From Bacteroidales bacterium (GTDB lineage Bacteria > Bacteroidota > Bacteroidia > Bacteroidales > GCA-2748055): 44,272 nucleotides of DNA. Below the pieces are notes generated by a model that saw only the letters and a program-made list of their open reading frames with translations, was not told the origin of the DNA and did no database searches. How positions within the stretch are numbered: the stretch's first letter is position 1; each line of letters begins with the position of its first letter. Where the stretch lies: positions 1 to 44,272 of the forward strand of contig JAOZQY010000029.1 in assembly GCA_029931975.1 (NCBI GenBank). The letters run 5' to 3'. Shown one piece after another: positions 13,558 to 41,776 of this stretch. The translations under genes were made by a program, and so were the position numbers.

Positions 13558-13704
13558 CCATCTTGCTCGCTTCTTCAGAGGGGAATCTACTTGATTCAGA
13601 TCATTTTGTGCAACAGAACTGCCAATTCCTACATTGATTTTAAAGGCGTGATGGCCTATTTTTATTGGGCCTAATTGCAACACAAACTTTTCAAACTCAT
13701 TAAT

Positions 13705-20163: not shown

Positions 20164-20164
20164 A

Positions 20165-21100: not shown

Positions 21101-21130
21101 ACTTTGTATTTAACCATTATACACCATCCT

Positions 21131-24661: not shown

Positions 24662-25528
24662 CTACTTCCACCGTTGGGGTTCAGCGGAAGCCAGGTCCAA
24701 GGCTTCACCCTCGTCAGCAGCCAGGTTGTAGAGTTCATACCGGTCGCTTTGATCGGCATTATCACACCACCATCTGATCAGTTTCCAATCGCCCTGTCGC
24801 AATGATGTGGAAGGACTGCCGTGAGGATAGTGACAGAAGATTTCATCCCGGACTGTTTTGTTATTTTCCAGGCTTGGCTTCATACTTACCCCATCAAATG
24901 TAAGACCTGCCGGATCTTCCCATCCAAGCATATCCACAAAGGTGGGAAAGAAGTCGGTGGACTGTTGAAGGGCATCGGCTTTGGCCCGGTACTTGTCTAT
25001 CTGGTGTTCCTTGGCCTGCCAGGGAGCATGTACTTCCCAGGTCCAGTAGTTCAGGAAGAAGGGTTCATTTTTATGTTCATGGATGTATTTGACAGCCTCG
25101 TCGCACATCAGATCCTCCAGGTTAGATCCGGGCTTTCCATGACTATCGTAAATTGGGAAAGGGTAGAAGAATCCCGCAGCCAGAGTCTTATTTCTCGGGG
25201 GAGCCGATTCTGCCAGGTGTTTCTCAAGGACCAGCTTATTCAGGTGGCAAACAGGCACGGTGATTCCGATCCGGGATGGATATAAGCCGGTCATTATGCT
25301 TGCCCGGGTAGGGGAGCACAGGGGATTGGCAGAATAGGCCTGCGTAAATATCATCCCTTTGTTTGCAAGGGCATCAATGTTAGGCGTTTCATGAAAGGTG
25401 CTTCCATAAAGCGACAGATCGTTTACCCCCAGGTCATCAGCCAGGATAAAGACCACATTGGGTGGATCAGTGGCTGTAAGCGTAAAGAAAATGAAGGTGC
25501 CCAGTAGCAAATTGAATAGTTTTTTCAT
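24662..25528 (-). CDS. Internally deleted sulfatase (S1 family)
   Basis: 288 residues, whereas S1 sulfatases are about 450-550. The signal peptide is residues 1-20; metal aspartates lie in ILADDLG (D31, D32), and the formylglycine motif C71-S-P-T-R with GLYPSRIG is intact, as are H167 (VHAPW) and K249 (DWKLI). Between NKTLAAG and FFYPFPIY the usual block containing GKWHLG is missing. At KAD/ALQQSTDFFPT the block with the SDNG metal ligands is missing. The C-terminus ends early at EPQRWK. Two essential parts are gone, so it is probably inactive. Last gene of the long minus-strand block, 20 bases after the GH127 fusion. Confidence 0.8.
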   Translation of the reverse strand: MKKLFNLLLGTFIFFTLTATDPPNVVFILADDLGVNDLSLYGSTFHETPNIDALANKGMIFTQAYSANPLCSPTRASIMTGLYPSRIGITVPVCHLNKLVLEKHLAESAPPRNKTLAAGFFYPFPIYDSHGKPGSNLEDLMCDEAVKYIHEHKNEPFFLNYWTWEVHAPWQAKEHQIDKYRAKADALQQSTDFFPTFVDMLGWEDPAGLTFDGVSMKPSLENNKTVRDEIFCHYPHGSPSTSLRQGDWKLIRWWCDNADQSDRYELYNLAADEGEALDLASAEPQRWK

Positions 25529-25548
25529 GTTTTGTCTTTTTTTTAGAT

Positions 25549-28251
25549 CTAGTTATTGGGAACCTCCATCAGTATTTCCTGATAGATATCAGGTCTGCGT
25601 TGCTGGCTATTCCTGTTGTAGGCACGTGCATTGCGTAATCTTTTCAGATCCAGTGTGGCTTTCATGTAATGTTCCCCGGTTTCTGCACTGGAAGCCTTGA
25701 TGATACCCGGCCAGTCAGCAATCATGGTCCCGCTGCCGTAAGCCTGGTTGGTACAGATCATGGATACGGTATTGTGCCAGATGGCGGTTTTTACAATATA
25801 GTCCTCCACGGCTCCAAAACGGCTGTTTGCCCAGACAAGTATTTCGGCACCCTTGAGTGAAAGAATGCGGAAAGGTTCCGGGAACCATCCGTCGTAGCAG
25901 GTCAGGATTCCAATCTTCGCAAAATCCAGATCGAAGACCGGAAACTTATTGCCTCTTTTCATGATCCATTCCGGATCATTTTCAAGAAACCATTGTTCAT
26001 CTTTTCCTGAGGGGGGCTTGCTATAGGCCGGTTGTCCTTCGTATTTGTCTATCGCGGCATGGGTCTTATAGTATTTCCCCATAAGTTCCCCGTCTTTTCC
26101 AAACAGGAAGATGGCATTGGAGAAACTTCCGTCCTCAAATACTTCCCAGCCTCCTATAATTACATAGATGTTATTTCGCGCAGCTGCCCTGGCCAGAGCC
26201 TCTGTCTCTTTCCCTGGAACCTTGATCCTGCCCAGGCAATACTCGGGGAACACCACCAGCCTGGCACTGTCCTTCGATGCTCTTTCGATATAGGGGATCA
26301 CTTTCCCGCATACATCTAACTCCAGACCCGGAGTTACCGTTTTATCGTATCCTGATAACTGAACTGCTGCCACTTTAACCTGGTCGGCCTTTACCGTGGG
26401 GAGCCAGGTAGTGATATGAGTTCCATTCCAGTTATTTACAGAGGCATAATCAACCATGGAAATTCTTCCTTCTGAGCTTGGTACCTGGAACTGCATCCGG
26501 GTCCCTGGCAGAGTGGGTTGCTCCGGAACAATATCCACATAGCCATCCTCAGAAATGATGGAAACAGCCTCGTTGTATTCCGGATCCATATTCTCATCTC
26601 TGGAGAGTACTATGGGCCCCCTTACCAGGGCCTTGAAATAGTCGCCGGAACGATTGCTTCCGTAGGGAGCATCCAGGATCCGGCAGCTCATATCCAGTTC
26701 CAATTCTATCAGATCATCCGGGCTCCATGTACGGTCAATCGCTGCATAGGTTCCGGGTCTGACATCCATGGTCTGGTCGTTAACTTTAAGGAGGGTATTG
26801 CTGCTCCACTCCGGAATGCGGATGCGCAGGGTAAATCTTTCTTTTTTTGGAGAGTCAACCCGGATAACTACCTGACCACTTAAGGGAAAATCAGTCTCAA
26901 TGGTCAGCTCGAGTGGATTGTCCCGGGGACTGGCCAGGCTGGCTTCACAGGCGTTAAAGAGATTAATGACCGGTCCCTCATTGGAGTTCATAACGGCCAC
27001 ATAGGGCAGATAGGCCAGTCCCATGGGACCATTCAGGTTACAACAGCTTACATGCACATCATTGATAATTCCTCCCCATCCGGTGGTGATGGTCTTCGAT
27101 CCATTCAGGCGGTTCACATAACTAAAACCATCTCCTCCCGGTTTCATGGCTCCTATCAGCCCATTATATGCATACTTCTCAATCATATCCATGGCAGATG
27201 GATCGCCAGTGAGTCTCAGAATCTGGCTACAGAGTTTCAACCAGGTAACTCCCACACAGGTTTCCATCATACGGTTCATATCCGGATTGGTTTGTTCCAG
27301 GGCGGTATTTCCCCAGCCTTCACCCATTACTGCTGGATGGTGGACATCTCCACCGGCGTTTCCAATAATGGTAATTTCCTTTTCCTTGATCTTTTCAAAG
27401 AGGTTCAATGCTGCGGTTTTCCAGTGCTCGTTCCCGGTAACGCGGTAGTATTCCACCAGGCCTTCAAAGAGAGACATCATTTCATAGGCCTTGGGGTACG
27501 CGCCCCCGATGTCGATGGGATCTGTATTGTTAAAGGCATCTTCTATCACATTATGTCCCAGGGCACCCCCTTCTTCCTCCACGATGTACCTGGCGAAATC
27601 CAGGTAGTCCTGCTTCCCGGTCAGATTGAAGAGTCGCATCATGGGTTCGAGCAGGGTGCTCGATTCGATATGATTGGGGCTCCATCCCTGGTCTACGATC
27701 CTGATTAGGGGAGCTGGCCCAATCTGTTCGACAATGCAATCGGCCTGTCGGATCATGGCCTGAAGAACTGATGGATCCTTCTCCACATGGGTATAGTAGC
27801 CAAGTAACCCAAGCAATACGTATTTTCTTTCCCAGAGATCCCCACCCTGGCTATCGGGCTGATCAGCCACTTCCGAGCAGCTGATACTTCCATTCTCCTT
27901 TACGGTACTTAGTAAATCTTCGACCGTTGCTTTCAGAACCTTTTTCAGTTCAGGATCCTGTGTATAGCGGTAGAACATACTTCCCGAGCGGACTGCTTTC
28001 CCCCACATTTCACCCTGGGCAAAGAATTTTCTACCGTTTCTGAATAAATCAACCAGGCTGTCATAGGGGACTACCCCTTTATTCCAGTTTTCAATGGAAC
28101 GCTGGATATCCTCTTCGAAGTAGCCGGTAAATTTGAGTGAATGTGCAGGAATAGGTATGAACGTATCCTCAGACTTGCTTGTTTTATTGCATGCACAAGT
28201 GATAAGTATCAGGCTTACAAGCAGTAATACGAATAGGGGATTTGATCTCAT
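25549..28251 (-). CDS. GH127 (DUF1680) glycosidase fused to a carbon-nitrogen hydrolase
   Basis: A 900-residue lipoprotein (signal 1-18, lipobox near C19/C21). Residues about 40-618 are GH127, the family of Zn-dependent beta-L-arabinofuranosidases using a Cys nucleophile. E330-T-C332 and C403-C404 match its Zn-binding and nucleophile motifs, and NAGGDVHHPAVMGEGWGN carries acid/base candidates. The GH127 end VDYASVNNWNG...TTWLP looks complete. With almost no linker, residues about 623-895 are a nitrilase-superfamily domain with the full Glu-Lys-Cys triad: E670 (VVFPEY), K729 (GKYYKT), C785 (ILTCYDGWF). Nitrilases cleave amide or nitrile C-N bonds. The fusion suggests removal of a furanose and an amide-type group from one exported substrate. 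Both halves look catalytically intact. Confidence 0.9.
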   Translation of the reverse strand: MRSNPLFVLLLVSLILITCACNKTSKSEDTFIPIPAHSLKFTGYFEEDIQRSIENWNKGVVPYDSLVDLFRNGRKFFAQGEMWGKAVRSGSMFYRYTQDPELKKVLKATVEDLLSTVKENGSISCSEVADQPDSQGGDLWERKYVLLGLLGYYTHVEKDPSVLQAMIRQADCIVEQIGPAPLIRIVDQGWSPNHIESSTLLEPMMRLFNLTGKQDYLDFARYIVEEEGGALGHNVIEDAFNNTDPIDIGGAYPKAYEMMSLFEGLVEYYRVTGNEHWKTAALNLFEKIKEKEITIIGNAGGDVHHPAVMGEGWGNTALEQTNPDMNRMMETCVGVTWLKLCSQILRLTGDPSAMDMIEKYAYNGLIGAMKPGGDGFSYVNRLNGSKTITTGWGGIINDVHVSCCNLNGPMGLAYLPYVAVMNSNEGPVINLFNACEASLASPRDNPLELTIETDFPLSGQVVIRVDSPKKERFTLRIRIPEWSSNTLLKVNDQTMDVRPGTYAAIDRTWSPDDLIELELDMSCRILDAPYGSNRSGDYFKALVRGPIVLSRDENMDPEYNEAVSIISEDGYVDIVPEQPTLPGTRMQFQVPSSEGRISMVDYASVNNWNGTHITTWLPTVKADQVKVAAVQLSGYDKTVTPGLELDVCGKVIPYIERASKDSARLVVFPEYCLGRIKVPGKETEALARAAARNNIYVIIGGWEVFEDGSFSNAIFLFGKDGELMGKYYKTHAAIDKYEGQPAYSKPPSGKDEQWFLENDPEWIMKRGNKFPVFDLDFAKIGILTCYDGWFPEPFRILSLKGAEILVWANSRFGAVEDYIVKTAIWHNTVSMICTNQAYGSGTMIADWPGIIKASSAETGEHYMKATLDLKRLRNARAYNRNSQQRRPDIYQEILMEVPNN

Positions 28252-28342
28252 AGTTTTATATTAATGTGTCTTACTTAGTTCGATAATTACTGAACCACCG
28301 GCTGTCCACTGATCGCTCGAAATAGTTTAGCTTATTCATTTC

Positions 28343-30328
28343 TCATTCAGTATTATCCAGGACCCTCAGGTTGATTCCGGCCCACATGGTATTTACATTT
28401 GGTGTATCTGATAATTTAATCAGAAGTCTGTTGCTTCCCTGTTTCAACTCAGCATCGATCAAATTGCTGACAAAACCATTATGTACCAGGGAATCTGAAT
28501 GAATCAAAGTTCCGTTGAGGAAGACCTGCAGCGGATCATCATAGGAGAGCTGCAGCCTGACTTTCTTATCCTCATCACTTGTAAGCTCCGTACTGGCCAT
28601 CATGGCCCGGGCATAGTATCCCATGTGGTGATTTCCTCCCAGATTATTCATCACATGTCCATAGGCATACATAAGGTTTAGAAAGGAGCCTGAAGCCTTT
28701 TGTTTCGCCCAGCCATCATAGGTGCCATACAGTTTTTTGCTGAATATGATGTGTTCGGCCTCTGCTGGCATTCCCTGATCCAGTTCAGATATATCCGGCA
28801 GGACCCCGAACAGCCTGTCCAGGTCCGAAACATCAGGGGTATTCCCATCTTTCAGGAGTTCTTTTACCGTAACGGGTCCGAAGACCAGCCATTCCCTGTC
28901 TTCAGCTTCAGTCTCGGTCATGGTCATGTCTTCCGGGGAATCCTGGTACCAGAAGGCCACAGAACGGGGTGATAATCCTTCTGTAACTCCCCAGTTTACT
29001 GCAATGGATTCGCTGAAAGGGTAGGGGTTCTCCAGGTGAATACGCATGCGCCCCTGGTCATTGTCAAAAGCCTCACTGTATGGAAAATTCTCTCCCTTAC
29101 CAAAGAAGGCAAAGGAGAAATAGTCCTCCCCATTGATACCATGCAGGAACAGGGGTTGCGAAGTTCCTGCATCGATCACGGTGAAATCCCCTCCACCATG
29201 GTCATGGTGGGTGTCGAAAATACTCATTCCCACCCAGTGACCCTTTCCACGTGTGGATAGGACCTGGAAGGGTAAATATCCGACCGAGCTGTCCACCCGG
29301 GTGTGTAGTGCATGGAAGTAGCCCCAGCCGGGTTCAAATTCCCCCACCTGTTCAAGATCAACTTCCAGGTTCCACTCTTCATTTGGACTGCTTCCTGTGA
29401 TTTCAATTTCTGCCGAAGAAGCAAAGGGCATGGGGAAATAGCACTGGTTATTATTCAGGGCCACCCCCCGGAAGGGCCCAAAGAAATCGGCCAGGTCCAC
29501 ATTCACAGCAGGAGAATCAGAATTATCAAAGCGGATTTGCATGGTGACTCCTTTACGTTTGGTGTTAAGTGCAAGACGCCTGATAATGGCCGGACCCTCA
29601 ATTCGGACCTTTTTATCTCCCGTGAAACGCCATTTCCTGGTTGTGGTTTCAGGAAGTATTGGTTCAGATGAGTCAGCGACCTTATCCTGAGATTCGTATT
29701 GCAGGTCGATGGAAGTGCCATCCGGATCGTTATTCTGCACCAATGAAATCCCTTCCATGGATTTATCCTCCAGGCGGTAGTCCAGCTGGAGAAACACCAA
29801 TCCAATAAGGGGATTTGCAACAAGCTCTACTCGCAGAGACTTTTCAAAGGGTACCGGGAGATAGAAATTATAAGAGTCATAATCCACCCTGCTTCCCCCC
29901 GGAAAAATGAATTCCTGCTCACACTTAGGGGCAGCATCAACCAGTTCATCAAAGGGACCGGTAATGGATGGATGCTGCTCACCATCCACATAAAACTCCA
30001 GGATAAAGGGGCTTTTACCGGGTCCGTGTGTTTCCCAGATATGCCTTAAGCTGCCACTTCCTTCCAGGTCAAGGATGGTCTTCCTTCCGTTCTCACCCAG
30101 CATGGCCGGTCGCAGACATATGGTCTCCAGTCCAAGTACAAAAGAGTTTTTCCCTGCTTTGTAAGTTTTTATATGATGAAGGTTGAGGAGTTCTTTTTGC
30201 AGGGCAGGAGGAAATGCCCGTTCCGCTATTTTGGGACCGGGAGATGAACTGCATGAGGACAAAATCAGTAGCAGTATTAAAATGACCCAATATCTGGTGT
30301 ATCCTGTATTAAGTGTTCTTGTATTCAT
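28343..30328 (-). CDS. GH172/DUF2961-type lipoprotein
   Basis: A 661-residue lipoprotein (lipobox ILSSC). DUF2961 features are GSGSLRHIWETHGPG, FILEFYVDGEQHPSITGPFDELV, PFEKSLRVELV, and the second jelly roll with VNVDLADFFGPFRG and NNNQCYFPMPFASSAEI. GH172 members hydrolyse alpha-furanosides such as D-fructofuranose or D-arabinofuranose and work as oligomers. This copy is divergent; the usual catalytic glutamates cannot be pinned with certainty. A C-terminal beta-domain (about 570-661, FLNGTLIHSDSLVHNG) is added. The 91-base gap to the GH127 fusion is among the larger ones in the block. Confidence 0.75.
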   Translation of the reverse strand: MNTRTLNTGYTRYWVILILLLILSSCSSSPGPKIAERAFPPALQKELLNLHHIKTYKAGKNSFVLGLETICLRPAMLGENGRKTILDLEGSGSLRHIWETHGPGKSPFILEFYVDGEQHPSITGPFDELVDAAPKCEQEFIFPGGSRVDYDSYNFYLPVPFEKSLRVELVANPLIGLVFLQLDYRLEDKSMEGISLVQNNDPDGTSIDLQYESQDKVADSSEPILPETTTRKWRFTGDKKVRIEGPAIIRRLALNTKRKGVTMQIRFDNSDSPAVNVDLADFFGPFRGVALNNNQCYFPMPFASSAEIEITGSSPNEEWNLEVDLEQVGEFEPGWGYFHALHTRVDSSVGYLPFQVLSTRGKGHWVGMSIFDTHHDHGGGDFTVIDAGTSQPLFLHGINGEDYFSFAFFGKGENFPYSEAFDNDQGRMRIHLENPYPFSESIAVNWGVTEGLSPRSVAFWYQDSPEDMTMTETEAEDREWLVFGPVTVKELLKDGNTPDVSDLDRLFGVLPDISELDQGMPAEAEHIIFSKKLYGTYDGWAKQKASGSFLNLMYAYGHVMNNLGGNHHMGYYARAMMASTELTSDEDKKVRLQLSYDDPLQVFLNGTLIHSDSLVHNGFVSNLIDAELKQGSNRLLIKLSDTPNVNTMWAGINLRVLDNTE

Positions 30329-30337
30329 CAGCTTGGC

Positions 30338-32104
30338 TTAGTTTAGTTTTATTAATCCCTCAAAACTCCTGTAATGCTCCTGGATGCCCAGTTCATCCAT
30401 TAGTTCCCTGACCTCAATGGTTTTCAGAGGTCCGGTATCGAATCCCTCTCCCTGGTCGTTATCATAGACCCAGGTGGGGGTTGGCCACAAACAGGCCCGG
30501 AATTTGATGGTGCGGTAAAACTCCAGGCTGACGCCCTGCTGACCATGGTGAGCCATCTGCAGGTAATCGCAATCCAGGTCGTCCCGGTAAGGGCCGTTCA
30601 ACAGACGATCTCCGCCTTCCTTACCCATATCTCCCAGGAAAACCATGGACTTTTTTGCATCCCATACCCGGATGGCCATGGATGAATTATTGTAGGGGTT
30701 GACTGTGATATCGGGATTTGACACGCTTAGTATTTTAAATTTTGTCTGGTCAATTACTATGGTCGTTCCCGGCTCTGTGAAATTCACCACATGGATTCCG
30801 GAACTATCCAGGTTCCTGTAAAAATCCTCTGTCAGGGACGTAAACCCGGTTTCATAGGCCTGGTAAAACGATGGGAGCAAGGCTGAATGATAAATGGTTT
30901 TTATCCTGATGTCATCCGGATCCATTAATATCTGATTTAAGGCACTCATATGGTCGTTGTGCGGGTGACTGATAAACCAGGCTTCCACTTCATTGCCCAG
31001 GGCAGCAAGAAAACCTTTCAGGTAGGCGGTTTCCTCCATCATGCCTCCGTCCATCACAGCAATTTTCCCATTACTCATTTGGAAAACATAGGAGTTACCG
31101 ATGGTATTGACCTGCGAGGGCAGCTGCCAAAGGGTAAAATTTGAATCCTTCTGTTTTTTCTCTGTCAGGGGAGTCTGTATCATCAATGATTCAATGATCC
31201 CGGCCAGTTCTTCATTTGAGATCCTGTTGTATAACCTGAGGTCCTTTCCTCCGGCCTTGCTTTTCCACTGAGCTCCCTGCTCCAAGGAAAATTCCAGGTT
31301 TCCCTTCTTGACCTTGAAGTAATCACTTTCTCCATTAATGGCATACAGGGTGGAAATCTGGTCCCAGCTGCTTCGGTCGATCTCACCGTAGTGCTTTTCC
31401 CACAGGCGATAGACTGTCTTTATAGGATTGTTGTCCTCTAAGTTCTGAGTTTGCTTTCCCGTTTTCACCTCCTGTCCGTCCACGGTAAAAACAATGGGAA
31501 CGGGACATTCATTTATGGCGATTTCAGAAGCAACCCGGTCCCATTTCATGTTCCAGTTCATGCCTTCACCCAGCATGGCTACCCACATCTTCACCTTCTT
31601 CTGAACCAATTCTTTGCCAGTTAAAGGGCTTAGCTCATCTGCTTTGGATTCCAGGAGCCCGGCTATATTGGTTAAATGTCCCACCGAAACCAGGGTGACA
31701 CTCCCATCTTCTTCAGAGGACAGAATTCGCCTGTAGAGATGTGTGGCTTCCTCAATGTCCTTGCTTGCTCCCAGGTCATTGGGAAATTCTTTAGCAATCG
31801 TTTCGGCATATACCGATCCTTTGTTCACACCTTCGATAAATGGTGCTCCAATGGGAATATCTGGTCGGCCCCGGAAGGTATTGACAGCATCCAGGGCAAA
31901 GGGGCTCCAGAAATGGGTGGTAGAGAGGATGGTTGCCAGGATTTGAACGTCGCCCCGGTCTGCAAAAGTATGTAGCATATAGAGGGCACCCACATCATCA
32001 ATATCGGAATCAAAATCGGTGTCAAAAATGATTTTTTCCTGGCTGTATATATTGAAGAAACAGGCACTAATCAGTATTAGTGAAACAAGGATGTTCTTTT
32101 TCAT
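30338..32104 (-). CDS. Nucleoside hydrolase-like domain fused to a metallo-beta-lactamase fold
   Basis: A 588-residue exported protein (signal 1-21). Residues about 24-312 belong to the inosine-uridine nucleoside hydrolase superfamily. The Ca-binding aspartate cluster is DTDFDSDIDDVGAL (D28, D30, D36, D37), with VSVGHLTNIAGLL and MWVAMLGEGMNWN following. Residues about 322-588 are a ComEC-like metallo-beta-lactamase fold: SHPHNDHMSAL (H380, H382, D384, H385), FLGDMGKEG (D492), QMAHHGQQG (H519/H520). The first half would cleave an N- or O-riboside-type bond and the second a phosphoester or ester; neither substrate is known. Both metal sites look complete. The gene is 9 bases upstream of the DUF2961 gene. 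Confidence 0.85.
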   Translation of the reverse strand: MKKNILVSLILISACFFNIYSQEKIIFDTDFDSDIDDVGALYMLHTFADRGDVQILATILSTTHFWSPFALDAVNTFRGRPDIPIGAPFIEGVNKGSVYAETIAKEFPNDLGASKDIEEATHLYRRILSSEEDGSVTLVSVGHLTNIAGLLESKADELSPLTGKELVQKKVKMWVAMLGEGMNWNMKWDRVASEIAINECPVPIVFTVDGQEVKTGKQTQNLEDNNPIKTVYRLWEKHYGEIDRSSWDQISTLYAINGESDYFKVKKGNLEFSLEQGAQWKSKAGGKDLRLYNRISNEELAGIIESLMIQTPLTEKKQKDSNFTLWQLPSQVNTIGNSYVFQMSNGKIAVMDGGMMEETAYLKGFLAALGNEVEAWFISHPHNDHMSALNQILMDPDDIRIKTIYHSALLPSFYQAYETGFTSLTEDFYRNLDSSGIHVVNFTEPGTTIVIDQTKFKILSVSNPDITVNPYNNSSMAIRVWDAKKSMVFLGDMGKEGGDRLLNGPYRDDLDCDYLQMAHHGQQGVSLEFYRTIKFRACLWPTPTWVYDNDQGEGFDTGPLKTIEVRELMDELGIQEHYRSFEGLIKLN

Positions 32105-32110
32105 GGTTGA

Positions 32111-34195
32111 TTATTTTTTCCATATCACACGATAGTTGAACCTTCGGTTGGGGGCGGTATCGCCTCCGGTACATAGGGAAATAGGATCTTTAAGTTCCCC
32201 GGGATTGTCGCTCCATTTGAAGTCAAAACTAACAGCTTTTCCTTCGAGGCCCAGCTGATCTCTTGGAATAAGCAGCTCCAGTTGATTTTTTGCATATCTG
32301 AATCTCAGGGTGCCCGCTTTGGTCCATTCTTCCTTTTCTTCATTATATTTCTGGAGAACGGTGTTTTTGTCATCTGTGATCTGACCGTTGACCAGGTAGT
32401 CATATCCATACCAGCCGGTCGATGCATCCTGATCCGCATCAATAAGCAGGAGCATCCAGTTCTCATCCTGGTGGGATGTCAGTGTCTGATCTGTTTCAAC
32501 GTAGAATGCAATATTCCTCTTGTCCACAGCCACCCTGGAGCTAATGATATCGTTTCGTCCCGATTCGTCCGTATAATACAGATTCCCGTATCCGGGATGG
32601 TCGCGGTGGAACACATCTCCCCTGGTGTCGCGGTACTCAACCCCAATTCCGGTCCAGTCTTCAAACTTTCCATCAATCTTCACCTTATGAAATTCCCTCA
32701 GCGCTGGAATGGGGCGCACCCCCTTATAGCGGCGGATATTCTGGGCCATCTGCATGTAATAGTTATCGGTGTACCCATCTTTCATGGGGTGGATGCAGCG
32801 GTTGAATTCTGCATTGTATTGATCCACAAAGATGAAAGGATTGTCTCTTCCAAGCCATGGCATGGTGTAGTCGCTTGGGGAAGGGGAGATGCCTCCTTCA
32901 GCAGTGGGTTGATATTTTCCGGCGGTCCACTCGTTCCAGTCATTGAGATATAGAAACTCCGGATCGGCCTCAAGAGCTTCATCCCAGCGCTCCTGGAAAT
33001 AGATGCCATATGCAGTTGGATTATCCACGGTATCACCCAACCATGGAACATAAGCAGGTGCCGGCATATCGTATTCATCCAGAGCAGGTTGTCCGTTTTC
33101 GCGGGACCAGGACTTGCCTACCCCCATGTTCTTATCTGTCATGGTAACCGGGTGCTGTGCAGCAGTGACTGCAGCCTCTTCCCGTTTTCCCTTGTGGGTT
33201 GAAAGGAGCTCTTCTGGCTTTAATGCTTTAACTTTTTCGTCGGCCAGACTATAACCGAAGCTCCAGTTGTCTTCCGTTCCTACAAAACGTTCTTCGCCCC
33301 ATTCATAGTAGCCCCACCACATGGTGCGAAGTGTGAAGAAGTTCTTGACTTCTTTGGTATAATCCGGGTAGAACTCCTCCGCATAGTCAGGATCCTGGTA
33401 ATGGGGATGATCGGGGTTTGTTTTTGCATCCGGATCGTAATTGGGGTTTGGGTGCCTGATTCCTCCCCGGTTGGCATCAAAAGCAGGTTTCCCATTATAT
33501 AGTAAAAGAGGCTTATCGTCCCAGTAAAACCAGAGATCGGTATATTTTTCTTCTTTGTAGATCTTTTCGTATAAATCCTGAACCACGGTAATAACCGGAC
33601 CATTAAAAGCCCAGAAACAAAATTTGGGTACAATATTTCCTTCTTCCTTCATCTGGTGCATGACCTTGAAAGTCTTTTCCCACTCATCCCAATAGCGCAC
33701 AGCATTGGTTACATCCATAACCAGTACGTCCACACCGGCATCGGTAAGCATGGACAGATCCTTGCGGATTACATACTCATCCTGACTGAGGAAATAGCCC
33801 ATTTCGGGTTCTCCCCAGTGATAGGAGTTGGTATACCAGAGTTCATGATTGGCATCCAGCCGGGCCCCCGGGTCTTTATTCAGGATTTTGCTTACGTCTG
33901 CCTGATAGTCTTCCCCCTCTCGATGTTTATCCTGGGTATGCCAGGTAATGTAGAAGATTCCGGTGATCCGCCTTTGATCCTCCTTCACAGGGCCGACTTC
34001 TTCGTAGGAAGGCATGGTGCGCCCAAGGGCATCGGATGCCACCCAGGTATCGGAATACAGGTCTCTATATGATTTATTCCCCTTGTCAGACTGGGAGCTC
34101 TGAACACTTTCATCCACTGTATTGCAGGCCAGAGGAAGGAACATCAGTATCAGGATAAATCTTGAAAAAATGGAGTTTAGACAGTTAGGTTTCAT
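32111..34195 (-). CDS. GH71/GH99-like TIM-barrel protein with C-terminal CBM9-like domain
   Basis: 694 residues starting at ATG 34195, which opens a clean lipoprotein signal (FLPLAC); the frame extends 11 codons further upstream. The catalytic-type barrel (about 70-530) shows GIFYITWHT, MLTDAGVDVLVMDVTNAV and LYLNDWNEWTAGKY, the NEW motif being shared by GH71/GH99-like and related proteins. The last 150 residues (VKIDGKFEDWTGIGVEYRDTRGD, WMLLLIDADQDASTGW) are a CBM9/DOMON-like beta-sandwich. It is 6 bases upstream of the nucleoside hydrolase fusion. Mannoside or glucan specificity is unproven. Confidence 0.7.
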   Translation of the reverse strand: MKPNCLNSIFSRFILILMFLPLACNTVDESVQSSQSDKGNKSYRDLYSDTWVASDALGRTMPSYEEVGPVKEDQRRITGIFYITWHTQDKHREGEDYQADVSKILNKDPGARLDANHELWYTNSYHWGEPEMGYFLSQDEYVIRKDLSMLTDAGVDVLVMDVTNAVRYWDEWEKTFKVMHQMKEEGNIVPKFCFWAFNGPVITVVQDLYEKIYKEEKYTDLWFYWDDKPLLLYNGKPAFDANRGGIRHPNPNYDPDAKTNPDHPHYQDPDYAEEFYPDYTKEVKNFFTLRTMWWGYYEWGEERFVGTEDNWSFGYSLADEKVKALKPEELLSTHKGKREEAAVTAAQHPVTMTDKNMGVGKSWSRENGQPALDEYDMPAPAYVPWLGDTVDNPTAYGIYFQERWDEALEADPEFLYLNDWNEWTAGKYQPTAEGGISPSPSDYTMPWLGRDNPFIFVDQYNAEFNRCIHPMKDGYTDNYYMQMAQNIRRYKGVRPIPALREFHKVKIDGKFEDWTGIGVEYRDTRGDVFHRDHPGYGNLYYTDESGRNDIISSRVAVDKRNIAFYVETDQTLTSHQDENWMLLLIDADQDASTGWYGYDYLVNGQITDDKNTVLQKYNEEKEEWTKAGTLRFRYAKNQLELLIPRDQLGLEGKAVSFDFKWSDNPGELKDPISLCTGGDTAPNRRFNYRVIWKK

Positions 34196-34265
34196 GTTGG
34201 AATTTATTAATTCGACGTTTAAATTCATACTTTAGAAAATAATGGATCCGGAAACCTTCTTTTGG

Positions 34266-34278
34266 ACTGCAATGCAGT
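34266..34278. promoter_or_regulatory. Perfect 13-bp palindrome in the 146-bp operon gap
   Basis: ACTGCAATGCAGT is a perfect dyad around a central A, lying between the amidohydrolase stop (34342) and the GH71/99-like start (34195). It could be a regulator operator or part of a processing hairpin. No poly-T tract follows. Confidence 0.35.
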
Positions 34279-34341
34279 GGAGGTGCTTAAGAAGGCAAGT
34301 ATCTGGAAAAAAAGTATTCGTTTCATTATCAAGGCTGGTTA

Positions 34342-35721
34342 CTATAATGGATAGTAAGATCCAATTCCATAGATGCCTACAGCATTGTTATTCAAGAGCT
34401 GAGCGGCGATCTCTCTTAATTCAGCATCACTGATGCCGGACTGTTTTTGTTTTTTGGACAGAGCCTCACCAAGTACTCTGCGGCTAATCATGGAAGCTCC
34501 AGTTGCCATTTCCACGGAAGTCGAATCATTGCTCATGGTCCATTTGCTGAGGGGGATGTAACCCAGCCAGGTATCCATGCTTTTTCTCAGGAAATCCGGA
34601 TTCAGAATCGGCTGCCAGCAGGTATCGATATATACATTTGGATGTGCCTGGGCGAGGAAACCGGCTTCATCCAGGTAGGGCCAGCAATGCAACATGATTA
34701 TTTTCTGGTTCGGGTATCTGCTTGCCAGTTTCTGCAGGGGCAGAGGATTGGAGTGGGGGTGGTTGTGTGTGCCCACATGGATCTGGTGGGGCCATTTTCG
34801 GTGATTGGCCAGCTCGCACAGGATATGCATCAGCCAGTCCTGGAATCGTTTTACCTCCTGCCCGGAAAGATCACCTCTGAAACGGACCCCGGATTCTTTG
34901 ACCTCTTCAAAATCCAGGGAACGGGTGTAAGCTTGTAGCTGTTTAATTCCCAGACAGTCCCGATCTGCGGCATGTGAGAACATTTTCTCCAGGAAACTGC
35001 GCCAGGTAGGGCCATCCACCGGGTCAATGCCCAACTTTTCGGCCAGGAAATCCCTTCTTGGATGTGATGTTTTCCAGAAATCCAGGAAGGGATCGATCCT
35101 GAGCAAGGTGGAGGTAAAAGACAATTCCTCCAGGGCGGGTCCGGTCTTGAAATCTGCAAAATAAAATTCAGGCTGCACCGGCCGGATCAGGTTGGTGAGT
35201 CCGGCTTTGGACATCAATTTCCTGTACCAGGAAAACAGGTTTCCGTATTGTTCTCCAATCATTCTGCTTGCATTTATGAACTGTTCCTGATCAAAAGATT
35301 GAAGGTCGTAGTTATAGGCAAAGAGAATTCCGAGGCGCAGCGCCTGGTAGGTGCCTTTCACTCGAAGATCTTGCAGGATTTCAGATAGTTCCCTGAATTC
35401 CTCGCCAGGCTCCAGGTTCTGTCGTAGCTTGAGCCCATTTCCGGCCAGACTGCCTGCCATATAAGGATCAATCAGCAAATCTGCCATAGTGGTCCTCCGG
35501 TCCGGGAGAGCACCGGGCTTCAGATCGGCCACGAAGCCGGCATCCACAAATCCTATGGGTGTCAGGGAGCCCCAGTGTTCATGACTGCAGCTTATGGGTA
35601 TTTCAGCCAGGTAATCGGGTACAGGAACGGGTAATTCATCCTTAACAAGAGGTGTGCATCCTTTCGATATTGCTGCAGCTCCAAAAATAATACCGGTATT
35701 TAAAAATTCTTTCCTATCCAT
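34342..35721 (-). CDS. Amidohydrolase-superfamily protein, exported
   Basis: 459 residues, with an N-terminal RKEFLNTGIIFGAAAISKGC leader resembling Tat/lipoprotein signals. The amidohydrolase fold shows HEH in ISCSHEHWGSL, HVGTHNHPHSNP, IIMLHCWPYL and the late Asp in SNDSTSVEMA, giving a plausible metal site. It is reminiscent of amidohydrolase-2 and uronate-isomerase relatives, but an exported lipoprotein-like leader argues against a cytoplasmic isomerase. It probably hydrolyses a lactone, ester or amide of a sugar. It is 12 bases after the serine hydrolase gene. Confidence 0.75.
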   Translation of the reverse strand: MDRKEFLNTGIIFGAAAISKGCTPLVKDELPVPVPDYLAEIPISCSHEHWGSLTPIGFVDAGFVADLKPGALPDRRTTMADLLIDPYMAGSLAGNGLKLRQNLEPGEEFRELSEILQDLRVKGTYQALRLGILFAYNYDLQSFDQEQFINASRMIGEQYGNLFSWYRKLMSKAGLTNLIRPVQPEFYFADFKTGPALEELSFTSTLLRIDPFLDFWKTSHPRRDFLAEKLGIDPVDGPTWRSFLEKMFSHAADRDCLGIKQLQAYTRSLDFEEVKESGVRFRGDLSGQEVKRFQDWLMHILCELANHRKWPHQIHVGTHNHPHSNPLPLQKLASRYPNQKIIMLHCWPYLDEAGFLAQAHPNVYIDTCWQPILNPDFLRKSMDTWLGYIPLSKWTMSNDSTSVEMATGASMISRRVLGEALSKKQKQSGISDAELREIAAQLLNNNAVGIYGIGSYYPL

Positions 35722-35733
35722 TGATTTCTGTTT

Positions 35734-37035: not shown

Positions 37036-39080
37036 TGATCAAGAATTAGTGTAGCATTCTTCAATGATTTAATATCGATATTAAGCGGACCAAAGGCCAG
37101 CAGGGGCATGTCCAGGGAATCTGTAATATTCAGGTTGGGATTGAGACCCGGGCCATAATAGAGCTGTGCAGGTTTATCGGGTATGGCTGAAAGGTATAGT
37201 TTTAGGCCTGCCGGATCGAGTGGATCTTTCTCGATTCTTGAGATTACATAGGGAATACTGGTCTCGTTTCCAATACGAAGTTCGAACCCGCTTAGCTTTC
37301 CATTTCCTTTAAGAGATCCGCTTACTGCGCGGTAATGAAGCTTTAGATAGGGGGACCCTGAGGAAGGATCTTTATCCAGTTTAATACTGTGCAGTTGTGG
37401 TTGATCGGCATGGCCTTCCAGGTCGTAAGCATACCTGAGCGCGATCTCTCCGATACGGGCGCCAATGCGCTTATTGGATTCAGTGGAGAGGTGGGCCACA
37501 TCATCCAGTTCAAGATCGATTCCTGTGGTGATATATAGATTTGGCCGCGATTTTACCACCTTTTTCTGGATATGACGGATGGCTTCCCAGTCCCTTCCCA
37601 TCTTTGGATTACGGGAGTTCAGCCTGCCAATTTGAATGATGATGATGGGCAGGTCTGGCCGCATGAGATCCACACGGACCGCATCTATGAATCGAAGTAG
37701 TTTTTCTTCATAGGTATCAGGTTCCCCGATAATTCCTTCCGATTCACCCTGGTACCAGATCATTCCTTTTATATTCTCTATGCCGGCCGAGCTAGCCCGG
37801 TTCAGCATAGCTCCATAGAGCGAACTGTCCCCGTGTACTTTTCCCTCCGGGTTCCATTGTTGAATGGTCGATCCGCCCAGGGCACAGGGAATGAGGCCGA
37901 TGGGTTTCCCGGAATTGCTCTGCAGGTGCCTGGCAAAGAAGAGTCCCGGTCCTGTCCCACCAATGGGTTCGTACCTGCTTTTTTCTCCCCTTTCCCTGAA
38001 TAGTGCAAGGGTCTTTTCCACACTCTTTTCCGGATCGCCTGAGAGTTCATAAAATGCAAGGGGATAGGCTGGTGCCCTGGCTTCAAAGATCCGGTGGACC
38101 GGACTTTGGGCAATGCTCCACTTATCATCCATATTCATCATCCAGATATGTGGATTTCTGAGGGTATCGGGTGTACGTCCCGCTCCCTGCATATTGGATT
38201 GCCCGGCCAGGATCCAGACATCTGCTTCTTCCGGACAGGGATTTATTTGTCCAGGGACTCCATTTGTGTAGTGGAGGGCCGGATCTTCTACTTCCCGGAT
38301 GGGGAGGTACTGGTCCAGATTCTTCATGGCAATAACCGTGGCTCCAATTTCTTCCAGGTAGTCCATGAATTGTTTAAACATGACGGGATCGGTATGAACC
38401 CAGGGGTGGGCAATATCTGGCACCCCGTGGAACTGAAGGATGATAGCTTTCCCGGGGATCCCCCGTTCTATAATGCTCTTAAAGTATTCCAGGGTCCACT
38501 GTGGATAGGCATCTGCAGTGGTGGGGATCACCAGGGGGTGATTTATGTTGGGATCGTACAGCGGTCCCTTTGCAATTTTCCCATATGGAATTTCAGGCTG
38601 CATACCACGACGGGCATATTTGTACCCCAGCTTACGAACCAGCGCGATGGTGCCTGGTGCAAAGTGGTTTCCAGGGTATCCAAAACTAATCGGTTTTGGA
38701 ACACCATTGGCCAGGAGGGCAGAGTCAATCATGGCCAGGTTCCACTCCATGTTAGCAAGGGCATTTGCAGTATGAAGAGGCATATGGGTCCAGCTGTGGT
38801 TCCCGATCTCAAATCCCATCCGGTAGAGTTCCCCGATCTCGGCCCATTGCATAAAATTGGCAGTATCATTCATCCATGCATGGGATACAAAGAAGGTGGC
38901 TCCAAATCCTTTTTCCTTCAGGAGGGGTGCCACATATTCCAGGTGGGATCTGACTGCATCATCAAAGGTCAATACCACCAGCTTTTGGACCGGTTTCTCC
39001 TGCTTGCAGCCAGGAAGGAGGCTGATTGCCAGGATGAGGGCAATTATCCAGGGCAGTCCTTTAGATTGGAGTTTCATCAT
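37032..39080 (-). CDS. NodB polysaccharide deacetylase fused to SASA-type acetylesterase
   Basis: A 682-residue lipoprotein (lipobox LLPGC). Residues about 33-255 are a NodB deacetylase: D40/D41 in LTFDDAV, H95 and H99 in GNHSWTHM, and ISFGYPGNHFAPG; these metal enzymes remove N- or O-acetyl groups. Residues about 285-555 are a SASA/SGNH-like carbohydrate esterase: S295 in LAGQSNMQG, ALGGSTIQQW, MIWYQGESEG, with a His candidate in DVAHLSTESN. A beta tail (about 575-670) follows. Two unrelated deacylases on one chain suggest a heavily acylated glycan. It is 2 bases downstream of the GH78 stop. Confidence 0.92.
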   Translation of the reverse strand: MMKLQSKGLPWIIALILAISLLPGCKQEKPVQKLVVLTFDDAVRSHLEYVAPLLKEKGFGATFFVSHAWMNDTANFMQWAEIGELYRMGFEIGNHSWTHMPLHTANALANMEWNLAMIDSALLANGVPKPISFGYPGNHFAPGTIALVRKLGYKYARRGMQPEIPYGKIAKGPLYDPNINHPLVIPTTADAYPQWTLEYFKSIIERGIPGKAIILQFHGVPDIAHPWVHTDPVMFKQFMDYLEEIGATVIAMKNLDQYLPIREVEDPALHYTNGVPGQINPCPEEADVWILAGQSNMQGAGRTPDTLRNPHIWMMNMDDKWSIAQSPVHRIFEARAPAYPLAFYELSGDPEKSVEKTLALFRERGEKSRYEPIGGTGPGLFFARHLQSNSGKPIGLIPCALGGSTIQQWNPEGKVHGDSSLYGAMLNRASSAGIENIKGMIWYQGESEGIIGEPDTYEEKLLRFIDAVRVDLMRPDLPIIIIQIGRLNSRNPKMGRDWEAIRHIQKKVVKSRPNLYITTGIDLELDDVAHLSTESNKRIGARIGEIALRYAYDLEGHADQPQLHSIKLDKDPSSGSPYLKLHYRAVSGSLKGNGKLSGFELRIGNETSIPYVISRIEKDPLDPAGLKLYLSAIPDKPAQLYYGPGLNPNLNITDSLDMPLLAFGPLNIDIKSLKNATLILDQ

Positions 39081-39082
39081 CT

Positions 39083-41776
39083 TTATTTAGTTAACTGACT
39101 TGTAAAATGGTAGGTGCCGGACCCTATTTCCACAGGTTCATCGTTGCCGGGAATGAACACAGTTGCCCGACTGTTGGGCGGAATGCTTACATGCCAGTCG
39201 AAAAGGTCTCCTGAGCGTTCCCATTCACTCTTGATCCATCCCAATGGAGATTTGTGACTGGCCTTCACATGATTCAGTCCCTCCGCCAATACAGGCTTCA
39301 TAATGATGTTTTTGAAACCGGGATCCATCGAATCGGGTTTAATTCCTGCAAGATCTTCATACAACCAGATCAGGAAATCGCCCAGCAACATCACGTGGTT
39401 ACCCGAGTTCATGGCCGGATCAGCAGTGTTCCCGTTCCATAATTCCCAGATGGTAGTGGCACCATTTTCGATCATATAACCATAGCTTGGATAGTCGGTT
39501 TGTGTATTGACCCTTAAAGCCAGATCGGCCCTCCCGTATTTGGTGAGGATCCGGTTGAAGTATTGCTGTCCGATGAGGCCTGTGGTGATGTGGGAGTGAT
39601 GTTCTACTTCGATTTTCTCGACCAGGTTATCGAAGATGTGCTGCTCATATTCGCCTGGAACCATATCGAAAGCGAGAGCCAGTACATTCACGGTGGCTGA
39701 GTTGTTGCTGTATGTCCCTGTTTCGGAATCATAGAATTCATTAGTAAATGCTTCTTTCACCCGCTTGGCCAGTCCACTGAAATAACTGGCGTCATCTGAT
39801 TTATCCAGCAATTCTGCATAGCCCTGCATAAGTCTCAGGTTATGGTAGAAAAAGGAGGTGCCCAGGTAGGTGCCATTGGTCAGACGCGCAGGATCTTTGG
39901 TATGGATGAGTTGCGGATCGATGGGTGGGACACACCAGTCACCATAAACATCCCTGGGCATCAGATCATTTTCCAAATAGTTTTCAGTCATGTAGTCCAC
40001 CCAAAGCTTTAAATGCGCATAACTCTCCACGACCACATCCTTGTCCCCATACTGATCATAAAGCATCTTTACCAATTGGATGGGTGTTCCTGCCCAGGTA
40101 ATATTGTCACTGTAAAAAGGCCAGTAGGCCGGGCATACATCAGAGATACTGCCACTTTCTTTTTGTCCATCAAAGATATCGACCAGCCATTTTTTATACA
40201 GATTCTGAATGTCGAACATATAAGATTCCCCCCTGGATCCGGCAGCACGGTCGCCCAGCCATCCCTGACGCTCGTCACGTTGCGGGCAGTCGGTGGGGAT
40301 GCTCCGATAATTCCCACGGATGCCCCAGACGGCATTTTTATAGATCTGATTAATCAAGGGATCCGAGCATTCGAAGTGGCCGGTCATTGTCAGGTCATCA
40401 TGGATCACTTTTCCTTCAAGGACAGAAAGCTCAGGAGTTCCAGGGTATCCTGTTACTTCCACATACCTGAAGCCGTGAAATACAAAGCGGGGTTCCCATG
40501 TTTCTGTGCCTTCTCCTTTTGCCACATAGATATCTGTTACCCGGGCTCCCCGGATATTGGCCAGGTAGAGGGTGCCGTCCTCATTCACGGTCTCTCCGAA
40601 GCGTTGTTTGAGAATGGTTCCCTCATCGGCCTCGATCGAAAGCTTTGTCCAACCCACCATGTTTTGTCCCATGTCGAATATATATACACCTGGTTCAGGA
40701 TTTGAAACAGAGATGGGGTTGATGGTCTCTGTGACCCTCATTGGCTCGATCATCTGGGAAGAAAGAGAGGGAGAGGAAGGATCCACTTTCTCAGCTTTCA
40801 TCCAGCCTGAATCATCAAATCCCGTTTCATTCCATCCAGATAGCTCCATACGAGCATCATAGAATTCTCCATCGTATTCGTTATTCTTTCTGATGGGGCC
40901 GCTGGCTGAGAGTTTCCAGGTCTCATCGCTGACTACCAATGATTTGCTACCATCCGCATATTCGATTTCCAGCTGCATCAACAGTTTGGGAAAACCATAA
41001 GTAAAGGTCGGGGTGGGAGCATTAATGCGGGGTGAGAAGTAGCGACCATTGCCCAGGATAACCCCCACTGCGTTCTGGCCTTTCCTGAGCTGATCTGTTA
41101 CATCATAGGTGACGTAATAGGAGCGTTTGGGATATTCCGAAAGGGCAGGGGAGAGCACATGATCACCCACTTTGCTTCCATTGAGGTATAGTTCATAAGT
41201 GCCCATGCCCACGATATATGCCATGGCTCTTTTTACGGGCCTTTCTGCGCTAAAATCCTTTCTTAGATAGCGGGCCGAGAGTAGCCTGTTTTCAATTTCC
41301 GGATGGTCATTTCCTACAGCACGATCAAGCCCGATCCAGGAGGCTTTCCAATCCTCCGGTGCCAGCATTCCCATGCTAAATGATGCCGTTTTGCTCCAGG
41401 GAGAATCCTGATCTGAGGCATCCCATATCTTCACTTTCCAGTAGACTCCCATGCCTGAAGAAAGAGGAACCCCTTCATAAGGGGTCATATTCGATTGAGC
41501 AGAGATAGTTTTTCCAGAATCCCAGAGATCTGCGCTTCCTTCTTCCAGGAGTGACGGATCGGTAGCGACAAGGATCTGGTAAGCGGTCTGCTCTACATCT
41601 TGCCCCGTTGTATTTATCTTCCACGTTAACCTGGGTTGTATCCTGTCAACCCCAAGCGGGGACTCTCTTCCCTCGGTCTGTAGATCAACTACTTCTGTGG
41701 TAGAAATGGAAGTACATGCGGTGATAATTGCGAATAGGACAAGGAGTGATTTGAGTTGATTCTTTTTTGCAAACAT
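39083..41776 (-). CDS. GH78 alpha-L-rhamnosidase lipoprotein
   Basis: An 897-residue lipoprotein (lipobox IITAC). The canonical GH78 order is visible: N-terminal Ig-like domain (SPLGVDRIQPRLTWKI), beta-sandwich domains (APEDWKASWIGLD, GMGTYELYLNGSKVGDHVLSPALSEY, ILGNGRYF), and the (alpha/alpha)6 barrel with the catalytic segment TDCPQRDERQGWLGD, then VYGDWCVPP, GLIGQQYF and GATTIWELWNG. It releases non-reducing L-rhamnose. Active-site residues are all in place, unlike the variant GH78-like enzyme at 21131. It is the first gene of the nine-gene minus-strand block. Confidence 0.95.
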   Translation of the reverse strand: MFAKKNQLKSLLVLFAIITACTSISTTEVVDLQTEGRESPLGVDRIQPRLTWKINTTGQDVEQTAYQILVATDPSLLEEGSADLWDSGKTISAQSNMTPYEGVPLSSGMGVYWKVKIWDASDQDSPWSKTASFSMGMLAPEDWKASWIGLDRAVGNDHPEIENRLLSARYLRKDFSAERPVKRAMAYIVGMGTYELYLNGSKVGDHVLSPALSEYPKRSYYVTYDVTDQLRKGQNAVGVILGNGRYFSPRINAPTPTFTYGFPKLLMQLEIEYADGSKSLVVSDETWKLSASGPIRKNNEYDGEFYDARMELSGWNETGFDDSGWMKAEKVDPSSPSLSSQMIEPMRVTETINPISVSNPEPGVYIFDMGQNMVGWTKLSIEADEGTILKQRFGETVNEDGTLYLANIRGARVTDIYVAKGEGTETWEPRFVFHGFRYVEVTGYPGTPELSVLEGKVIHDDLTMTGHFECSDPLINQIYKNAVWGIRGNYRSIPTDCPQRDERQGWLGDRAAGSRGESYMFDIQNLYKKWLVDIFDGQKESGSISDVCPAYWPFYSDNITWAGTPIQLVKMLYDQYGDKDVVVESYAHLKLWVDYMTENYLENDLMPRDVYGDWCVPPIDPQLIHTKDPARLTNGTYLGTSFFYHNLRLMQGYAELLDKSDDASYFSGLAKRVKEAFTNEFYDSETGTYSNNSATVNVLALAFDMVPGEYEQHIFDNLVEKIEVEHHSHITTGLIGQQYFNRILTKYGRADLALRVNTQTDYPSYGYMIENGATTIWELWNGNTADPAMNSGNHVMLLGDFLIWLYEDLAGIKPDSMDPGFKNIIMKPVLAEGLNHVKASHKSPLGWIKSEWERSGDLFDWHVSIPPNSRATVFIPGNDEPVEIGSGTYHFTSQLTK

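Follow-up and report, generated by a model that had tools for sequence, protein, structure and literature searches.

The window, as the whole stretch of DNA analysed here is called, is one complete contig of 44272 bases (contig C191 of genome G000, an assembly of 366 contigs whose relatives are Bacteroidota records). On the minus strand, between positions 24662 and 41776, it carries nine open reading frames (ORFs) in a tight operon. This operon is a real, conserved, and fusion-rich variant of the carbohydrate-active enzyme (CAZyme) gene clusters that lack the SusC/SusD pair (SusCD). It probably encodes the exported enzymes of a cluster that, in this lineage, does without SusCD and breaks down a glycan with alpha-L-rhamnose and acyl groups, which is probably also sulfated. 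Searches of one open-access library turned up no publication on this combination of enzymes, in line with the original prediction, made from the sequence of the window, of a candidate undescribed system.

Enzymes of the nine-gene operon

The intergenic gaps of the operon were -4, 2, 6, 9, 12, 20, 91, and 113 bases. Scans with family models (Pfam, NCBIfam) covered 27 proteins of the window; the gene truncated at the right end of the contig was not among them. The nine genes contained 11 catalytic domains plus a broken sulfatase, i.e., the roughly twelve domains first proposed, and all of the ORFs and domains listed at that time were present, the GH71/99-like domain being recognized by predicted fold and the others by Pfam (Table 1). 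Two unrelated enzymes are joined in each of three genes, as had also been claimed: a NodB deacetylase with a SASA-type esterase, a nucleoside hydrolase with a metallo-beta-lactamase domain (NH-MBL), and GH127 with a carbon-nitrogen hydrolase of the nitrilase superfamily. The other genes encode GH78, a serine hydrolase (SerH), an amidohydrolase (AMH), the GH71/99-like protein (GH99L), a DUF2961 protein, and the sulfatase. The strict lipobox pattern was satisfied in six of the nine proteins; the lipobox cysteine was less canonical in GH99L and AMH and absent from the sulfatase, and for NH-MBL cleavage by signal peptidase I was as plausible as a lipobox. The earlier description of nearly all products as lipoproteins thus held for the six but not in full.

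The catalytic motifs sought, whose functional meaning is known from their families, were present in the GH78, NodB, SASA, SerH, NH, MBL, nitrilase, and GH127 domains of the window. Presence was read from a pattern scan, with the GH127 CC, SxxK, and SASA patterns rechecked by alignment. The SxxK motif of SerH lies at residue 102 and is kept in G017 (a genome of the same genus) and G040 (a genome of another family). Both metal motifs were present in NH-MBL, as were the E/K/C motifs in the nitrilase half of GH127-nitrilase. The E-x-C ... CC residues of GH127, which we take to be its Zn/Cys site, were intact, with E330/C332 found in 45 and C403/C404 in 44 of the 46 aligned sequences and gaps in the remainder. 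In related loci, the MBL motif LGD was unmatched in L107 and AHHG in L124, by pattern only and without alignment. In sequence searches of the PDB, NodB-SASA matched acetylxylan esterase and polysaccharide deacetylases, AMH gave a single weak match (2qpx), and NH-MBL gave none at E<=0.01. A WbsX-family neighbour returned repeat-protein matches only and was not used.

GH99L had no Pfam match at E<=1 and no PDB sequence match at E<=10. A structure model was built from a 19-sequence alignment (predicted template modelling score, pTM, 0.72; mean predicted local distance difference test, pLDDT, 67), and its residues about 57-504 matched GH99 (Z up to 14.8, root-mean-square deviation 4.9, 264 aligned) and GH71 (Z 13.2-14.4), against a background of Z 11.2-11.9 for unrelated pyruvate-kinase barrels, a margin of about 3. 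Judged from this model, the product of 32111-34228 is GH71/99-like in fold. Endo-alpha-mannosidases of GH99 have two catalytic Glu residues three positions apart, E333 and E336 in BxGH99. In GH99L, the Glu of a WNE motif (E433), presumably the equivalent of E333, was invariant in the 19 sequences, and position 436 was invariantly Ala, a departure from the GH99 pair. Relatives with 60-79% identity were present in other genomes. The family, for which Pfam has no model, appears to be an expanded and unnamed one, represented by 11 match pieces in G017, 13 in G021, and 11 in G048 (one gene can give two), some of them in open frames of 1200-1500 amino acids (aa).

Aligned to the intact 478-aa copy of G017, the sulfatase of the window proved to be shortened at its C terminus and to have lost about 177 and 306 bp in two internal, in-frame deletions, confirming that it is broken; its ancestor presumably functioned as a sulfatase. 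The DUF2961 protein matched GH172 in fold and family, and one of the two catalytic Glu residues was found in it. E401 aligned with the nucleophile E291, and the column of the acid/base residue E270 was Gly, within an HGGGD loop. These roles are given for the GH172 enzyme alphaFFase1 in the accessible part of PMC8605356, and a parallel Glu pair, E254/E233, appears in PMC10115798. The E270 column was also Gly in the only DUF2961 ortholog found (G040, 69% identity) and Glu in all four other aligned homologs. The THHDHGGGD loop is kept in the G040 ortholog, and the protein has an apparent extra N-terminal copy of a jelly-roll motif (GSGSLRHIW near residue 90, with a similar stretch near 245).

Conservation, fusions, and the SusC/SusD pair

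Conserved co-occurrence, which the original prediction had proposed as a check, was observed: the gene set is kept in G017 and in part in G040. Contig C191 of G017 carries GH99L (cut by the contig end), AMH, SerH, NodB-SASA, and GH78 in the order and strand of the window with 62-79% identity (AMH 62%, GH78 77%), and homologs of the right-edge genes of the window lie about 8 kb beyond GH78. Contig C242 of G017 carries homologs (69-91%) of the left-half genes for the short-chain dehydrogenase, isomerase, GH106, AraC regulator, GH43-like protein, the ORFs starting at 14991 and 18154, and the GH78-like protein, followed by GH127-nitrilase, MBL, and the intact sulfatase (74-85%). GH99L and the sulfatase sit at contig ends, which makes it plausible that the two contigs are adjacent. 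In G040, contig C130 holds GH99L, SASA, SerH, and DUF2961 together with left-half genes, and contig C233 holds GH78 (64%), NH, and NodB. Relatives of AMH, SerH, and GH78 are known from contigs retrieved through other genes. Since the two G017 contigs hold homologs of left-half and right-edge genes too, the unit comprises most of 7258-44272, a span of about 37 kb, with the nine genes as its right half. The limits of 24662-41776 initially proposed therefore delimit the operon but not the locus.

The GH127-nitrilase and NodB-SASA fusions are shared with G017 at 67-81% identity, and their occurrence in two species ruled out an assembly artefact for both. In G040, NodB and SASA are separate genes, GH127 (73%) has no fusion partner, and part of a nitrilase (78%) was found at the border of a different contig. 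When genome contigs were scanned with GH127-nitrilase, 55 loci were obtained, of which 45 (L095-L139) matched the GH127 part and 10 (L140-L149) the nitrilase part only; the gene counts given for the 45 are lower bounds, because flanks reached at most 10 kb and many contigs were short. Among the 45, the nitrilase fusion was found in one, L097 (= G017). L101, L110, L122, and L133 were rejected as nitrilase fusions, since their tblastn ranges reached 634-692 but blastp at the ORF level ended at 618-622. Among 100 genomes, G000, G017, G040, and G021 had a GH127 match with 60% identity or more, and DUF2961 matches occurred at E<=1e-20 in the own genome and G040. NodB-SASA matches were found in 4 of 17 genomes tried, the own one included.

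For the third fusion, no match spanning NH and MBL was found outside the own genome (14 of 100 genomes had a match). The two halves are separate genes in G017, and NH is separate in G040. At the join, NH is complete, its end coinciding with that of the free NH in G017 and G040, and a linker of about ten residues leads to a mature MBL. Coming from one assembly, this fusion may be an assembly artefact.

Elsewhere, the same domains have other partners. In a Proteiniphilum metagenome-assembled genome (MAG; L124, 11598-14000), an MBL of this family is joined to a GH20 beta-hexosaminidase; GH127 and a GH99-like domain share a 1227-aa ORF in Sphingobacteriales bacterium 50-39 (L133, 9884-13564), and SerH of G017 is fused to a heparinase II/III-like C-domain (1056 aa; L085, 2924-6091), a 44% relative of which occurs in the GH127 locus L111. 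Because the same domains are joined differently in these ORFs, the recurrent joins with changing partners suggest one shared substrate and are the strongest argument for it. They also supply direct, testable hints on neighbouring bonds in an unnamed glycan. The substrate or bond may be widespread, since GH99-like genes stand alongside GH127 in 16 of the 45 loci and the GH127 clade is broad, with members in several families of the Bacteroidota and in records labelled Planctomycetota, Verrucomicrobia, Lentisphaerae, and Hydrogenedentota. A possible further GH20+MBL relative, cut by a contig end, was seen in L125 (8860-10608). In addition, a separate locus of G040 (L045, 1060-10883, contig C229) combines GH127 with a nitrilase that is not fused and with a DUF2961-like gene in which the Glu is retained, a hint that the three functions travel together.

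No SusD match (PF07980, the one SusD model searched) was obtained on contig C191 of G000, C242, C191, and C631 of G017, or C130 and C233 of G040; elsewhere in the three genomes, 9, 9, and 6 matches were found, respectively. Likewise, tblastn with 23 SusC/SusD-cluster queries detected none in the window or in the 76.6 kb of G017 C242 and C191, the SusC control recovering 6 of 8 TonB loci of the own genome. A SusC-like match was seen on contig C155 of G000 (L090). As far as the contigs show, the locus is not a canonical Bacteroidota polysaccharide utilization locus (PUL), which is defined by a SusC/SusD pair, and no characterized standard PUL adjoined it in the sequence that could be seen, a neighbour that would have spoken against the original prediction.

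In the 45 loci, at least 42 contained the GH127 cluster, 10 SusC, 8 SusD, 5 NH/MBL, 5 a second GH78-like gene, 4 GH78, and 3 GH106. A Pfam check of nine SusC/SusD-cluster proteins (six SusC and three SusD) identified them as TonB receptors with a Plug domain or as SusD. SusC, SusD, GH127, and GH99L stood on one strand in seven loci, namely L096 (Prolixibacteraceae), L102, L104, and L106 (uncultured Bacteroidia), L126 (Proteiniphilum sp. X52), L128 (Bacteroidales), and L133 (Sphingobacteriales, with GH127 as part of the fused ORF). In L107, a minus-strand gene separates SusC from the others; L131 has no GH99L, and L130 has SusC on the opposite strand. SusD-cluster matches in L067 and L091 fell within GH99-like ORFs and were read as a shared domain. 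Because seven related GH127/GH99-like loci of other Bacteroidota have SusC and SusD, the SusCD-less state is lineage-specific and not a property of the pathway; the claim of a system without SusCD was right for the window and the G017 contigs but does not extend to these relatives.

The PULs with the same GH127 clade (L126, L102, L104, L106, and L096) resemble the operon in having GH127 (58-67%) with same-strand GH99-like genes, the relatives of GH99L being 64-68% identical in L106 and L126 and 32-37% paralogs in L096, L102, and L104; GH106 is present in L104, L106, and L126, and MBL in L096. Unlike the operon, they have SusC and SusD, their GH127 is unfused, and NodB stands alone in L106. The Parabacteroides sp. 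Marseille-P3160 locus (L107) has MBL, two GH99-like genes, GH78 (30%), and GH127 on one strand, but its MBL and GH127 are unfused; the link to the SusC-type receptor about 4.5 kb downstream is unsure. The operon agrees with the definition of SusCD-less CAZyme gene clusters given in the accessible text of PMC11980603 for Verrucomicrobiota, in which CAZyme genes are clustered in the absence of SusCD. It differs from the clusters described there in its enzyme fusions and its host, a member of the Bacteroidota with SusD genes elsewhere.

The SusCD loci of distant relatives bear on a second explanation, in which the operon is what remains of a decaying SusCD locus after the loss of SusCD and of sulfatase function, with the fusions as by-products of deletion. 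The broken sulfatase, the altered GH172 site, and the NH-MBL join, located precisely at the site of the lost MBL signal peptide, are consistent with such decay. The other ORFs are intact, however, and the tested motifs are kept except in DUF2961, whose change is common to the G040 ortholog. Moreover, two of the three fusions occur in two species at the identities given above and are therefore maintained. We thus consider decay improbable.

Substrate of the cluster

In G017, contig C242 encodes an L-rhamnose-isomerase-like protein (519.6 bits; cut-off 531.35), a rhamnulokinase-like protein (429.5; cut-off 527.95), and an SSF symporter, and contig C191 a class II aldolase. In the genome of the window, contig C155 carries genes for L-rhamnose isomerase (670.9; cut-off 572), mutarotase (123.8; cut-off 99.6), and RhaT (366.1, just under the cut-off of 369) near GH99-like and rhamnosidase-like genes. 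Of the rhamno-furanoglycan of the original prediction, the rhamnose part is well supported by GH78, GH106, and these catabolism genes, but the furanose part is weaker: it would rest mainly on GH127 family membership, and the GH172-type protein has no acid/base Glu.

Within the preferred reading, a SusCD-less cluster acting on a rhamnose-containing glycan, SASA, NodB, and SerH would take off O- and N-acyl groups, and the GH71/99-like barrel would then cut or trim the chain. GH78, GH106, and the second GH78-like protein would release L-rhamnose, GH127 may take off a side residue of furanosyl or related type, and its fusion partner, the carbon-nitrogen hydrolase, may cleave an amide-type substituent at the part of the substrate on which GH127 acts. 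A symporter would import rhamnose, and isomerase, kinase, and aldolase would catabolize it.

Alternatively, the locus may be a version of the known loci for sulfated methyl-pentose polysaccharides (algal rhamnose or fucose polymers), with lineage-specific joins of no special meaning; sulfatase relatives are present in G017 and G040 contigs. In the available text of PMC8857213, Verrucomicrobiota MAGs from diatom blooms likewise show GH78/GH106 beside sulfatases and rhamnose catabolism genes; they belong to a different phylum, and the partners named there are GH36, GH2, GH5, and GH108 rather than GH127, nitrilase, NH, MBL, or NodB. The GH127 clade occurs also in records named Alistipes, Parabacteroides, and Proteiniphilum, and the window sulfatase is broken; we consider this version rather unlikely. 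Of the enzymes that mark an ulvan PUL, ulvan lyase and a GH88/GH105 unsaturated uronyl hydrolase were not found in the 27 scanned proteins, the gene cut by the contig end being unscanned and its G017 ortholog having a sub-cut-off GH88 match.

A locus for rhamnogalacturonan-II (RG-II), with GH127 as an aceric-acid hydrolase beside GH78 and GH106, would fit the presence of both rhamnosidase families, the PDB matches of GH127 to GH127 entries, and its best NCBIfam match, aceric acid hydrolase NF049879. This match reached 106.9 bits against a cut-off of 950, and no other RG-II hallmark appeared in the Pfam and NCBIfam output for the scanned proteins, where not every hallmark family has a model. 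The RG-II locus was set aside as hardly credible. Equally hard to credit is a role in removing sugars from a small rhamnosylated compound, either a metabolite (saponin, flavonoid, or phenolic) or a bacterial glycolipid, instead of a polymer. Rhamnosidases, serine esterase, amidase-type and nucleoside-hydrolase chemistry, and the lack of a detected SusCD would suit it, but the GH71/99-like barrel with its paralogs, NodB, the heparinase-like and GH28-like partners in the G017 locus, and the SusCD loci of relatives point to a polymer.

The D-arabinan PUL42 of Dysgonomonas gadei, as far as the accessible part of PMC10115798 describes it, also combines DUF2961 proteins with a fucose-isomerase-type enzyme in one locus. 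Here, by comparison, DUF2961 lacks one catalytic Glu and rhamnosidases are prominent. A D-arabinan locus was rejected, as the GH172 site is incomplete and no DUF4185/GH183 endo-D-arabinanase was detected in the 27 scanned proteins (end-cut gene left out).

Several results weigh against a rhamnose-glycan cluster as read here. All of the enzyme activities are predictions, the GH172-type protein has no acid/base Glu, and the sulfatase is defective. Of 17 other genomes of the genus, a single one has the fused GH127-nitrilase, and the locus is therefore accessory; in G017 it is split over two contigs, with about 8 kb of other genes between GH78 and the right-edge genes. NH-MBL is known from one assembly, the G017 isomerase and kinase both score below curated cut-offs, and for the kinase of C155 the rhamnulokinase model gives no more than 63 bits (cut-off 527.95). 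Furthermore, a divergent SusC could escape a search that recovered 6 of 8 TonB-receptor loci, and SusD was sought with a single family model.

A bolder variant, which we regard as doubtful, proposes an undescribed rhamnose glycan with an amide-linked substituent beside a GH127-sensitive residue, removed by the tethered GH127-amidase. MBL, whose glycosidase partner differs between genomes, might then cleave a novel bond (e.g., lactone, phosphodiester, or sulfate ester), and DUF2961, with its HHDHGGGD loop present in both orthologs, might carry out new, possibly metal-dependent chemistry.

Remaining features of the window

The operon is preceded in the window by left-half genes on both strands and followed by two right-edge genes (Table 1).

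Table 1. Coordinates, strands, and supporting matches of the genes of the locus (percentages are identities)
Position	Strand	Product	Basis
7258..7968	-	Short-chain dehydrogenase (SDR)	Pfam; 82% in G017
7973..9385	-	Arabinose/fucose-isomerase-like enzyme, no signal peptide	PF11762 just over, PF02952 just under cut-off; 91% in G017
9416..12550	-	GH106 alpha-L-rhamnosidase	PF17132, 575.7 bits; 79% in G017
12685..13557	+	AraC-family regulator, cupin-type sensor	Pfam; 70% in G017
13675..14979	+	GH43/GH32/GH130-like beta-propeller	Pfam; 72% in G017 C242
14991..18104	+	Large exported protein, sub-cut-off MGH1-like GH match	75% in G017 C242, 62-68% in G040
18154..20163	+	Conserved exported protein, no Pfam/NCBIfam match	72-74% in G017 C242, 61% in G040
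20129..21100	+	Exported protein, sub-cut-off GH130 match	No homolog seen in G017 loci
21104..23653	+	Second GH78-like protein	PF17390/PF17389; 69% in G017 C242, 59% in G040
24662..25528	-	Broken sulfatase	Sulfatase match residues 23-91 only; SGSH_C match 180-278
25549..28251	-	GH127 fused to carbon-nitrogen hydrolase (nitrilase superfamily, CN_hydrolase), lipoprotein	Pfam
28343..30328	-	DUF2961 (GH172-fold) protein without acid/base Glu, lipoprotein	PF11175, 103.7 bits (cut-off 27)
30338..32104	-	Nucleoside hydrolase fused to MBL domain	Pfam IU_nuc_hydro and Lactamase_B; sub-cut-off NCBIfam ComEC-type match
32111..34228	-	GH71/99-like TIM barrel with C-terminal beta domain (model)	Predicted-structure match
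34342..35721	-	Amidohydrolase-superfamily metal hydrolase	Pfam Amidohydro_2, 42.1 bits
35734..37035	-	Serine hydrolase/esterase, beta-lactamase fold, lipoprotein	PF00144, 217.7 bits
37032..39080	-	NodB (CE4-type) deacetylase fused to SASA-type acetylesterase, lipoprotein	Pfam Polysacc_deac_1 and SASA
39083..41776	-	GH78 alpha-L-rhamnosidase, lipoprotein, operon gene 1	Pfam GH78 domains, PF17389 343.9 bits
42020..43492	+	Conserved exported protein outside operon, no Pfam family over cut-off	91% and 87% pieces in G017 C191, about 8 kb from GH78
43773-44270	-	Gene cut by contig end	G017 ortholog with sub-cut-off GH47/GH76/GH88 matches

Near the left contig end, a phage-type integrase gene (1602-2816, minus strand) was also found, which may be connected with the uneven occurrence of the locus.

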